Of a stretch of DNA of 53,287 nt, positions 30,025-32,857 are shown one piece after another. The position numbers and the translations under genes were made by a program. A model generated the notes under the pieces. It saw only the letters and a list, made by a program, of their open reading frames with translations. It ran no database searches and was not told the DNA's origin. Numbering within the stretch: position 1 is the first letter of the stretch; every line of letters starts with the position of its first letter. Source of the DNA: Terriglobus sp. (GTDB lineage: Bacteria; Acidobacteriota; Terriglobia; Terriglobales; Acidobacteriaceae); assembly GCA_026225595.1 (NCBI GenBank), contig JAMFTB010000003.1:1-53287 (forward strand), in the 5' to 3' direction.

Positions 30025-30714
30025 TTACTGCACAATCATGCTGCCATTATCGGGTGGAGTGATCTTCACGTTGTTGGCGCGGCAGCTGCGCAGGCCCTGG
30101 CAGGCAATGGGCTGCACACTGTCCTTGCTGAAGCAGGCCACCACCGCGGTAAGGCGGTTGTTACCGCACGATAGCGAGAAGCTGCCTTGCGGGAATGACG
30201 GGTTGGCGCGGTAGAACATGCTCAGAATCTGATCCGGCGGCATCATCACTTCTTTGTCCAGCTTCTTCAGCTGGTCCGGGATGGCGACGGACGTGTACGC
30301 CTGCCGCGCCGTGGCGAAGAAGGCCTCTGGCGACAGCGTGGTGCAGGTGCCGTGCTTGGCCCACTCATGCTTCAGCAGTGGCAGGCTCGGCGTCATGTCC
30401 AGGTTGCGCTCAGGATTGCGTGGCCCGGGCCGGTACGCGCATTCGCCAGGATACGTGCCATCAAAGTTCTGCGGCCACAGGCCGTGCAGCACAAAGCTGT
30501 GCGGTGCACGGCATTCCATGTTGTTCTCTGCAGCGCGTTCCTGCTGCGACAGCGTATTCAGGTTGCTGCAGAACTCCGGCGCCCACGACAGGTTCAGCTC
30601 ATAGAAGTCAAAGTGCCCCGGTTCAGACTTCACCTGCTGCGCATGAGCCGTGCCGGTACACGCGCCAACGCACGCCAGTGCCACAACCATGATGACTGCA
30701 AAGATCCGTTGCAT
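30025..30714 (-). CDS. Secreted ribonuclease T2
   Basis: A 229-residue RNase of the T2/Rh family, cutting single-stranded RNA through a 2',3'-cyclic phosphate. After a signal peptide (MQRIFAVIMVVALACVGAC, cleavage near AHA-QQ), the two catalytic motifs are complete: CAS1 FVLHGLWPQ with His77, and CAS2 KHEWAKHGTC with His116, Glu117 and His121. Six or more Cys would form disulfides in the periplasm or outside. Likely use: scavenging phosphate and nucleosides from environmental RNA. The start at 30714 opens the signal peptide; the long in-frame extension upstream has no family resemblance. It is divergent from the small secreted protein at 30971. Confidence 0.9.
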   Translation of the reverse strand: MQRIFAVIMVVALACVGACTGTAHAQQVKSEPGHFDFYELNLSWAPEFCSNLNTLSQQERAAENNMECRAPHSFVLHGLWPQNFDGTYPGECAYRPGPRNPERNLDMTPSLPLLKHEWAKHGTCTTLSPEAFFATARQAYTSVAIPDQLKKLDKEVMMPPDQILSMFYRANPSFPQGSFSLSCGNNRLTAVVACFSKDSVQPIACQGLRSCRANNVKITPPDNGSMIVQ

Positions 30715-30905
30715 ATCCGTGAAGACCCTCTTCCAATGATTCTCGCATTCATTCGCATCCCTGTTGTTCTCAGTCTCTTCACAGAGCGAATGGATGAGGG
30801 CGAAGATATACGCCCAACGTATACGTGCAGGACATGCTGCGCGGATGCAAAAAGAATTTCGAAAAAAACTATGGAACGGACTCGCTGAGGCTGCGTATCT
30901 GTCAG

Positions 30906-30947
30906 TGCGCGACGATGTCTCAACTGCAGTGATGACTTCGCCAGCTA
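30906..30947 (+). repeat. Duplicated leader sequence, copy 1
   Basis: A 42-nt stretch starting TGCGCGACG and ending CTTCGCCAGCTA upstream of the secreted protein at 30971. It matches 31731-31771 with only a few changes and one length difference. A further match, CAAAAAGAATT, lies about 60 nt upstream here and about 77 nt upstream of copy 2. The ribosome-binding context GGAGAAGTC is also shared. The copies are read in different frames, so the conservation is not from a shared peptide. Confidence 0.7.
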
Positions 30948-30970
30948 CTAAACTTTTAGGAGAAGTCGCC

Positions 30971-31279
30971 ATGTTCCGTCGTACCGTTACCACCATCGTC
31001 CTTGCCTCCGCCATCTTTGCCCCCGTTGCATCGCATGCATTCCCCTTCTTTGCCAACACCAATGCCTCCACCCAGCCCAAGGGGGCGAAGATGGTGAAGG
31101 TGACCCTGAAGAACGAGACCAATCAGCCCATGCAGGTTCTGATTGAAGACAAGCCCGTTACCATTGCGGCGAACGGCGAGTATGCTCTGAATGCGCCGGA
31201 AGGCACGCACGTTTACGGCGCAGATAAAACCGTGAAGTTAGTTGTAACGCGCGACGTAAACGTAGCCTCCTTCCGCTAA
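30971..31279 (+). CDS. Small secreted protein, paralog 1
   Basis: A 102-residue protein with a signal peptide (RRTVTTIVLASAIFAPVASHA). The mature 80 residues are a compact beta-type domain: MVKVTLKNETNQPMQVLIEDKPVTIAANGEYALN, then GTHVYGADKTVKLVVTRDVNVASFR. It is clearly paralogous to the protein at 31795: both share 'V-VTLKN-----Q-L-I---PV--AANEY', 'VYGAD-TVK' and a terminal 'VAS-R'. AGGAG precedes the start. No known domain was recognised. It ends 0.5 kb before its paralog and is followed by a terminator at 31393, so each is probably transcribed separately. Confidence 0.75.
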   Translation: MFRRTVTTIVLASAIFAPVASHAFPFFANTNASTQPKGAKMVKVTLKNETNQPMQVLIEDKPVTIAANGEYALNAPEGTHVYGADKTVKLVVTRDVNVASFR

Positions 31280-31392
31280 GCTTCAAAAAGCTACGTCCTG
31301 CACAGGGGTGAAATGCTGTGGGGGCGGAGTGGGCGAGGTGGCAGCGGCTCTGCTCTTTCCCATCGCTTCCTACAAGCCGCAATCGTGAGTTT

Positions 31393-31434
31393 GGGCGTGC
31401 TTCGGGTATCCCCCGCAGCACGCCCTATTCTTTT
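31393..31434 (+). terminator. Intrinsic terminator after paralog 1
   Basis: Arms GGGCGTGCT and AGCACGCCC with an inner CGGG/CCCG stem, followed by TATTCTTTT. It lies 114 bp downstream of the first secreted paralog. Confidence 0.78.
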
Positions 31435-31730
31435 ACCAAGTGCCTCTGCGAGAGCAGGGGCGTTTTGCGCTTCAGATTGCGATAACGTTTGTCAACCCGG
31501 AGTGCGTGAAAATTGCGTCCGCTTGCGCAAATCCAACATACATTTGTCAAACATCCAGGGTAAAGAAATGTAACTTTGTGTAACTTTTTGGGTACACATT
31601 CACGGTCTAACAACGTTTAGAAAAGTTGCATGGAATGAGTCGTTTGCAGCTCTCAAAAAGAATTGCGAAAAAAGTAAGAAAAACCTTGCGTAGGGGTGGA
31701 ACTATTCGTCGTCTGGGGCGTATAACTCAA

Positions 31731-31771
31731 TGCGCGACGTTGTTTCAATTGCAGTGGGACTTCGCCAGCTA
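31731..31771 (+). repeat. Duplicated leader sequence, copy 2
   Basis: A 41-nt near-copy of 30906-30947 lying 24 nt upstream of the second secreted paralog, followed by the shared GGAGAAGTC ribosome-binding context. It shows that the tandem duplication covered the 5' leader as well as the gene. Confidence 0.7.
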
Positions 31772-31794
31772 TATCGCAGTACCGGAGAAGTCAC

Positions 31795-32109
31795 ATGATC
31801 TATCGTTCAATTACTGCCCTTGCCCTTGCGGCCTGCATCTTTGCACCGCTGTCGGCATCTGCCGCTTCCATGGATAACAACGCGAACATCGCTCAGGCCA
31901 AGCAGAAGGGTCCTATGGTCCACGTGACCCTGAAGAACCTCAGCAACCTGACCCAGAACCTTGTTATCGATGGCCGTCCTGTTTCGCTGGCCGCCAATGA
32001 AGAGTACAAGGTGGAAGCGCACGCAGGTACGGTTGTATACGGCGCAGACAACACCGTGAAGATGACCATCATGAGCCAATATGATGGTGCAGTCGCTTCC
32101 ATCCGCTAA
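31795..32109 (+). CDS. Small secreted protein, paralog 2
   Basis: A 104-residue protein with a signal peptide (IYRSITALALAACIFAPLSASA) and the same small beta-domain as the protein at 30971: MVHVTLKNLSNLTQNLVIDGRPVSLAANEEYKVE, then GTVVYGADNTVKM and a final VASIR. The two differ mainly in the charged positions, so they probably diverged after a tandem duplication that included the leader. GGAGAAG lies 7 nt before the start. A strong terminator follows at 32204. Function unknown; the size and export suggest a periplasmic binding or envelope protein. Confidence 0.75.
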   Translation: MIYRSITALALAACIFAPLSASAASMDNNANIAQAKQKGPMVHVTLKNLSNLTQNLVIDGRPVSLAANEEYKVEAHAGTVVYGADNTVKMTIMSQYDGAVASIR

Positions 32110-32203
32110 TTGGATAGGAAAGCTACTTACAATTCGAATTAGGAAAGACATCGCCACTTAGCCCCTTGCGGCTAACATCACGATGCCCCAAGTTAGAAAA
32201 GCT

Positions 32204-32243
32204 GGACGAGGTGCGTGCTGCAATCACGTACCTCGTCCTTTTT
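32204..32243 (+). terminator. Intrinsic terminator after paralog 2
   Basis: Arms GGACGAGGTGCGTG and CACGTACCTCGTCC pair over 14 bp with one mismatch around the loop CTGCAAT and are followed by TTTTT. Confidence 0.88.
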
Positions 32244-32302
32244 CATGCGCCTGAAACGTGTGCCCAGCGTCCCCGGCTGCACGCAGGATTTATCCTGCTG
32301 TC

Positions 32303-32857
32303 ATGGCAGTTGCTACGTTATGTGTTTTTTGTGCGTCCGCCAGCGGGACGAAGCCGGCCTATCGCCAGGCTGCGACGGAGCTGGGGACGAGGCTGGCGGC
32401 AAAGGGTATTGGTCTGGTCTACGGCGGCGCCACGGCGGGGCTTATGGGTGCGGTGGCAGATGCGGTGCTGGCCGGCGGCGGTCACGTCATCGGCGTCATC
32501 CCACATGTGCTGGTCGACAAGGAAATCTCCCACAAGGGCTGTACCGAGCTGCACGTGGTGGACACCATGCACACCCGCAAGGCGCTAATGGGCGAGCGCG
32601 CCGACGGATTCCTCATCTTGCCCGGTGGATTTGGCACGCTGGAGGAGCTGTTTGAGGTGCTGGCCTGGCAGACGCTGCGGCTCCACTCCAAGCCCATGTG
32701 CCTGCTGAATACAGAGGGCTTCTACGACGGCCTGCTGACCTTTCTGGACCATTGCGTGACGGAGGGTGTGCTGAAGCCGCGGGCGCGGGAAATTCTGCTG
32801 GTAGCCGACACGGTGGACGAGGCGCTGGAGAAGCTAATGACGGCTGGCGCAGACTGA
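32303..32857 (+). CDS. LOG family nucleotide 5'-monophosphate phosphoribohydrolase
   Basis: A 184-residue Rossmann-fold hydrolase of the TIGR00730/LOG family, which releases the base from cytokinin ribotides or purine nucleotides such as AMP. The signature PGGFGTLEE is near residue 106-114, and the phosphate-binding loop YGGATAGLMGAVAD near 40-53. The start at 32303 gives MAVATLCVFCASASG, the usual family opening. A terminator lies just upstream, so the gene needs its own promoter. In soil bacteria these are mostly housekeeping enzymes; plant signalling should not be assumed. The reductase gene at 32897 follows after 39 bp. Confidence 0.88.
   Translation: MAVATLCVFCASASGTKPAYRQAATELGTRLAAKGIGLVYGGATAGLMGAVADAVLAGGGHVIGVIPHVLVDKEISHKGCTELHVVDTMHTRKALMGERADGFLILPGGFGTLEELFEVLAWQTLRLHSKPMCLLNTEGFYDGLLTFLDHCVTEGVLKPRAREILLVADTVDEALEKLMTAGAD

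Follow-up and report, generated by a model that had tools for sequence, protein, structure and literature searches.

Why do two neighbouring genes for small, apparently exported proteins in a Terriglobus genome each carry a copy of the same 5′ leader, and what could such a leader do? We analysed a 53,287-nucleotide stretch of contig JAMFTB010000003.1, which we call the window, together with the corresponding loci of relatives. The two genes are the following.

30971..31279, + strand: gene 1, encoding a 102-amino acid protein with a signal-peptide-like N-terminus (judged by eye) and a C-terminal beta domain
31795..32109, + strand: gene 2, encoding a 104-amino acid protein with a signal-peptide-like N-terminus (by eye)

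Aligned over 104 columns, the two proteins share 42% identity (E 3e-26). The initial annotation had proposed that the 102- and 104-residue proteins have a small beta domain in common, and the motifs it quoted are indeed present in both. Structure prediction modelled residues 41–104 of gene 2 as seven strands with a pLDDT of about 90, and no significant fold match was found. Both genes are members of a family of small beta proteins that has no name; from inspection of the N-termini, its proteins are probably exported. The absence of a known family, also claimed previously, held in searches of Pfam and NCBIfam, where neither window protein scored above or near a curated cut-off; when 25 members were compared with Pfam, at most one member matched any given family (best E 0.0095). 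A Foldseek search with the modelled domain returned nothing at E ≤ 1e-3, the best match (3.5e-3) being a protein other than VHL. The closest solved structural neighbour was the VHL beta domain (Z 7.7, rmsd 2.5, 68 aligned residues, 15% identity), a likeness that is structural only and has a Z value within the range of unrelated folds, between which values below 8 are common. A profile search of the PDB gave 16 matches up to E 1. Designed proteins head the list, some of them fused (best E 1.8e-6, without any single passing stretch) and others de novo and immunoglobulin-like (scIg12 at 1.7e-5 and dIG14 at 2.1e-5, with two stretches each). We took these matches to reflect idealised beta-strand sequence and rejected homology to the designs; the family domain could still adopt an immunoglobulin-like sandwich fold.

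A profile built from 25 homologues detected the family in all 19 genomes of the genus, with one or two copies each and two adjacent copies in 8 of the 19. Terriglobus roseus DSM 18391 is a named relative in the genus, as are two MAGs of uncultured Terriglobus. Across the taxonomic family, members were found in 88 of 398 genomes and 6 of 79 genera. A search set up for the order matched 79 of 298 genomes, all from the same genus or family, and thus covers family depth. Tandem or near-tandem copies recur in genus g34 (genomes G098, G314, G327, G394 and G242), a pattern that suggests repeated duplication. In the window the gene pair sits between what we take, from their motifs, to be an RNase T2-like gene (about 30025–30714, − strand) and a LOG-type gene (32303–32857, + strand). 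Within the stretches fetched, the latter recurs downstream in all 19 genus genomes and in many from g34, and the former is present in some of the 19.

Each gene is preceded by its own promoter-like element.

30873..30898, + strand: ECF-sigma-like promoter of gene 1 (GGAAC, 16-nucleotide spacer, CGTAT)
31698..31723, + strand: ECF-sigma-like promoter of gene 2 (GGAAC, 16-nucleotide spacer, CGTAT)

Promoters of ECF sigma factors have an AAC-type −35 element, a CGT-type −10 element and a spacer of 16–17 nucleotides, and by motif comparison the promoter of the family fits this consensus. The composite pattern GGAAC-N15..18-CGTAT-N5..9-TGCGCGACG has exactly two matches in the window, one before each gene, and none in 100 dinucleotide shuffles. 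Requiring at least four of the five GGAAC positions and a spacer of 15–18 nucleotides, we found GGAAC-N15..18-CGTA upstream of 79 of 101 homologue entries, a set that takes in extra paralogues and a few wrong starts; in 50 block shuffles the count averaged 2.4 and never exceeded 7. A scan of the region turned up no sigma-70-like promoter. The GGAAC −35 element is missing for gene 2 in seven of the eight gene-2 loci (L003–L009), where CGTATA and the leader are kept; the best −35 candidates there match at two to three of five positions in L003–L006 and read GTAAC with a 17-nucleotide spacer in L007–L009. The window copy retains its −35.

The leaders that follow these promoters contain the repeats that first drew attention to the locus.

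30902..30970, + strand: 5′ leader of gene 1, from a putative transcript start a few nucleotides past the −10 element
31727..31794, + strand: 5′ leader of gene 2, likewise from a putative transcript start

The claim of copied leaders was borne out as one repeat of 39 nucleotides at 82% identity (30893–30931 and 31718–31756) and one of 14 nucleotides at 100% (30934–30947 and 31758–31771), with an A-rich 20-nucleotide repeat (95%) farther upstream. That the copies stand in different reading frames is true, but has no bearing if the leader is not translated. Each leader can form an apical hairpin, H1.

30917..30936, + strand: H1 of gene 1, stem GUCUCA / UGA(U)GAC, loop ACUGCAG, in the fold with the Shine-Dalgarno (SD) region forced free
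30924–30929, + strand: palindrome CUGCAG in the H1 loop of gene 1
31742..31760, + strand: H1 of gene 2, stem GUUUCA / UGGGAC, loop AUUGCAG

The gene 2 loop sequence UUGCAG is self-complementary when wobble pairs are used. Support for the hairpin comes from relatives (an example leader from other genera is CGACGAGCUUCCUGAACCAUGGCAG). In an ungapped alignment of 36 sequences, 8 of 10 stem pairs are altered on both sides, and covariation reached 0.397 compared with 0.219 ± 0.023 after shuffling (0 of 500 shuffles as high); slid partners gave no more than 0.175. Taken alone, the tally of doubly changed pairs is weak, since 35 of 500 shuffles reach the same value; for the other measures this number was 0 or 1. 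Among leaders of less than 60% identity (N=35), H1 pairing was −13.22 versus −9.45 for permuted partners (0 of 4000). RNAalifold on full alignments returned short or different structures only, and the stability of whole leaders did not exceed that of shuffled sequence (mean z −0.37; 21 of 82 below −1).

The 3′ arm of H1 has a second potential partner, the ribosome-binding site.

30934..30942, + strand: anti-SD segment GACTTCGCC of gene 1, which shares GAC with H1
30959..30967, + strand: SD region GGAGAAGTC of gene 1, complementary to the anti-SD segment at 8 of 9 positions
31758..31766, + strand: anti-SD segment GACTTCGCC of gene 2, which shares GAC with H1
31784..31792, + strand: SD region GGAGAAGTC of gene 2

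In both window genes, GACUUCGCC in the 3′ arm can pair with GGAGAAGUC in the SD region. This pairing was also maintained among relatives. For leaders whose loop was captured and whose identity was below 60% (N=35), it was −8.59 compared with −7.14 for permuted partners (0 of 4000), and none of 60 sets of shuffled arms did as well; within the CCATGG/CCTAGG type the permutation P was 0.002 (N=48). The anti-SD segment of L013 has lost one base, and its SD carries a matching one-base deletion. Duplex predictions of the segments place the SD core in a helix in 56 of 65 distinct leaders (59 of 69 before deduplication), and H1 and the SD pairing overlap by at least 3 nucleotides in 55 of 65 (58 of 69). 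Because the two helices use one 3′ arm, they compete. In L010 the GACUUC/GAAGUC register is lost, and the SD is still predicted to be paired in another register. Within the sequence type of the window, neither H1 (P 0.25) nor the SD pairing (P 0.20) beat permutation (N=17 in each case, with little variation); both partners of the SD pairing are nearly invariant there. The two-helix case for the window copies themselves thus rests on homology to their relatives.

We consider it probable that each gene has a two-state leader controlling translation, placed behind its own ECF-sigma-type promoter. The reading builds on what comparison among relatives established: the promoter motif, the covarying hairpin, the co-variation of SD and 3′ arm, the overlap of the two helices and an exclusive association with one protein family (below). 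Each gene would be transcribed from its own promoter into an mRNA with a dedicated leader. In one state the full H1 stem would form and occupy the 3′ arm with GACUUCGCC, leaving the ribosome-binding site free; in the other, the same arm would pair with GGAGAAGUC, cover the Shine-Dalgarno sequence and turn translation off. H1, being 5′, would form first during transcription, and the SD-covered fold is predicted to prevail at equilibrium. Translation would stay on if H1 were stabilised, plausibly by loop-loop pairing of two mRNAs through the self-complementary tip or else by the binding of a protein or RNA. We infer that the window copies follow their relatives, and we likewise infer the switching itself, the direction of control and the trigger.

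Predicted energies favour the SD-covered over the SD-free fold by 4.0 kcal/mol for gene 2, 6.2 for gene 1, 3.0 for L097 and 7.9 for L075. In L010 the difference is 5.7 kcal/mol, and the SD-free fold lacks H1. The minimum-energy fold of gene 2 draws the tip into a shifted hairpin. Given a preference of 3–8 kcal/mol in four leaders, a switch would need kinetics or a factor. The same energies, favouring one state, suit a static leader, in which H1 is a stabiliser of the mRNA 5′ end or a protein-binding hairpin and the SD pairing sets a constant rate without any switch. The position of H1 near the putative 5′ end, its strong covariation and the dedication of each leader to one gene family fit that arrangement too, as does L097, where a 3-bp H1 core persists alongside the SD helix in the SD-covered fold and the exchange is confined to the outer stem. 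However, a simple stabiliser needs neither an SD/3′-arm pairing that is separately conserved nor the overlap of this pairing with H1 in most distinct leaders, and we regard a static leader as unlikely, though deserving of consideration.

We also compared the tips of H1. The apical hexamers recovered were CCATGG, CCTAGG, CTGCAG, TTGCAG, TTGCAA, CTTAGG, GTTAGG and CCATGA. Allowing wobble pairs, six of the eight distinct hexamers (all except CCATGA and GTTAGG) are fully self-complementary versus 2.4 expected after shuffling (P 0.0026), a statistic that is suggestive, not decisive, the flanks of the genus pattern having been chosen with the axis known. The flanks captured a tip in 65 of 96 entries. 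Many of the other 31 are extra paralogues without the promoter; a different loop in a member with the promoter occurs, for example, in L054, L063, L066, L067, L076, L085 and L087. One tip base is deleted in gene 2 of L006, and CTGCAG is present outside the capture patterns in L011 and L013. Predicted self-duplex energies of the tips range from −2.6 to −14.3 kcal/mol.

Palindromes such as CCATGG, CCTAGG and CTGCAG, twofold symmetric and lying a few tens of base pairs past a promoter, could instead be DNA operators for a dimeric transcription factor. Such an operator has no use for a flanking stem that covaries as an RNA hairpin while its sequence varies, for the asymmetric 5′ AA found in most of the loops, or for a 3′ arm that tracks the SD, and we think this reading improbable. 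The initial annotation had left selection on RNA or DNA as alternatives; stem covariation and the tracking of the SD by the 3′ arm in relatives favour RNA. The ECF-like promoter, the occlusion of the SD, the overlapping helices and the self-complementary loop are additions to that annotation.

With a self-complementary hexamer and a flanking purine in the apical loop, the tip resembles in sequence the dimerisation initiation site (DIS) of HIV-1, and loop-loop dimerisation through it is plausible. A bolder version of the two-state leader, which we hold to be rather doubtful, is a messenger-concentration switch: two mRNAs, from the same gene or from both tandem genes (whose tips ACUGCAGU and AUUGCAGU can pair mutually), would kiss via their loops, stabilise H1, withdraw the anti-SD arm and free the SD, so that translation would turn on cooperatively. 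The gene-2 terminator loop could compete for the gene-2 tip.

32204..32238, + strand: intrinsic terminator of gene 2, 14 pairs followed by TTTTT
31393..31433, + strand: terminator-like inverted repeat 3′ of gene 1, with a weak T tail, absent from the terminator scan

Each gene had been assigned a terminator of its own. That of gene 2 is clear; 3′ of gene 1 there is an inverted repeat (31393–31425; 14 nucleotides, 5-nucleotide loop) with a weaker TATTCTTTT tail. The scan of the region found 2 such sites compared with 2.1 expected by chance. The gene-2 terminator loop GCTGCAATC (CTGCAAT; 32217–32225 in the window, and L003–L009) is invariant in all eight gene-2 loci on a variable stem. Over 8 nucleotides it complements the loop of the gene-2 leader, AUUGCAGU (−9.2 kcal/mol), and a 5′–3′ kissing contact between the two is possible.

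Genome-wide searches for the leader and for paralogs, which had been proposed as a check, returned strong matches solely before family members. A pattern combining the promoter with the CUGANCCAUGGC hairpin gave 47 matches in 45 of the 398 family genomes, and its reversed control gave none. By coordinates, 44 of the 47 lie immediately upstream of independently found members; the other three precede a 113-amino acid relative (L181), a member cut by a contig end (L179) and a decayed copy that has stops and no ATG (L180). The pattern covers only the CCATGG type and matches nothing in the genus of the window, where the loops differ. For the 19 genus genomes we therefore used a leader model, R1, scoring 150 candidates per genome: all 19 matches at E ≤ 5.5e-15 precede family genes, and the remaining 10 have E ≥ 0.014, the three best of them also standing before members. 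A short leader pattern gave mostly chance hits among the matches listed, little above its reversed control. The leader is dedicated to this protein family, and these searches found no regulon-wide leader. Simple inheritance of a functionless leader by recent duplication, which tandem genes with related proteins might suggest and which the initial annotation named as its own refutation, is very improbable, since the leader, with compensatory change, also stands before family genes present in single copy throughout the genus and before those of other genera. Two further candidates were discarded. Pairing of CGACG at the 5′ end of the leader with CGUCG in codons 3–4 (8-bp matches in L011, L015 and L019) was no better in matched than in permuted pairs (P 0.71, N=82; 0.76 in the genus type and 0.72 in the rest), and an upstream ORF starting in CCAUGG lacks its AUG in the window lineage.

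Rfam covariance models gave no match in the window at the gathering threshold, and only below-threshold matches in 20 relatives' loci and in 30820–32260; a mir-9338 match in L075 (48.9 bits, gathering threshold 98) lies outside the leader. A limited search of titles and abstracts in the open-licence literature found no description of the leader. Translational riboswitches employ competing helices with a common arm, one of which occludes the SD, and the leader resembles these and other two-state SD-occluding leaders in that design; it differs in having one short hairpin, no ligand pocket that we could identify and a single exported-protein family as its target. FourU RNA thermometers place a run of U opposite AGGA. 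Here the anti-SD is GACUUCGCC, and predicted SD pairing in the two window leaders is nearly flat from 20 to 45 °C, so a FourU thermometer was rejected and thermal switching of these leaders found no support. Guanidine-II (mini-ykkC) RNAs have two small stem-loops with conserved ACGR loops that pair loop to loop via a palindromic core (PMC7357161). The present leader has one hairpin whose 6-nucleotide palindrome varies between lineages, and with loops ACUGCAG, AUUGCAG or AACCAUGG instead of an ACGR pair it was not assigned to that class. The HIV-1 DIS is a six-nucleotide palindrome in a purine-flanked apical loop of a 5′ leader (PMC7357161). The likeness to our leader lies in these features; here the RNA is a bacterial mRNA, dimerisation is hypothetical, and most relatives have an 8-nucleotide loop with extra 5′-side bases (mostly AA). 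The acidobacterial motifs Acido-1 (RF01686) and Acido-Lenti-1 (RF01687), found by comparison and described as not cis-regulatory (PMC2864571), had no match in the window or in the 20 loci given to cmscan.

The leader is thus a candidate cis-regulatory RNA that Rfam does not contain. Comparison supports its two overlapping helices, and in soil Acidobacteria it goes with a single type of promoter and a single protein family. In nature, functional RNA oligomers are reported to be seen only rarely (PMC7357161). If the tip works by dimerisation, the leader would offer a testable natural case of mRNA dimerisation setting bacterial translation and, if the messenger-concentration switch is true, a bacterial mRNA that regulates itself by forming dimers.
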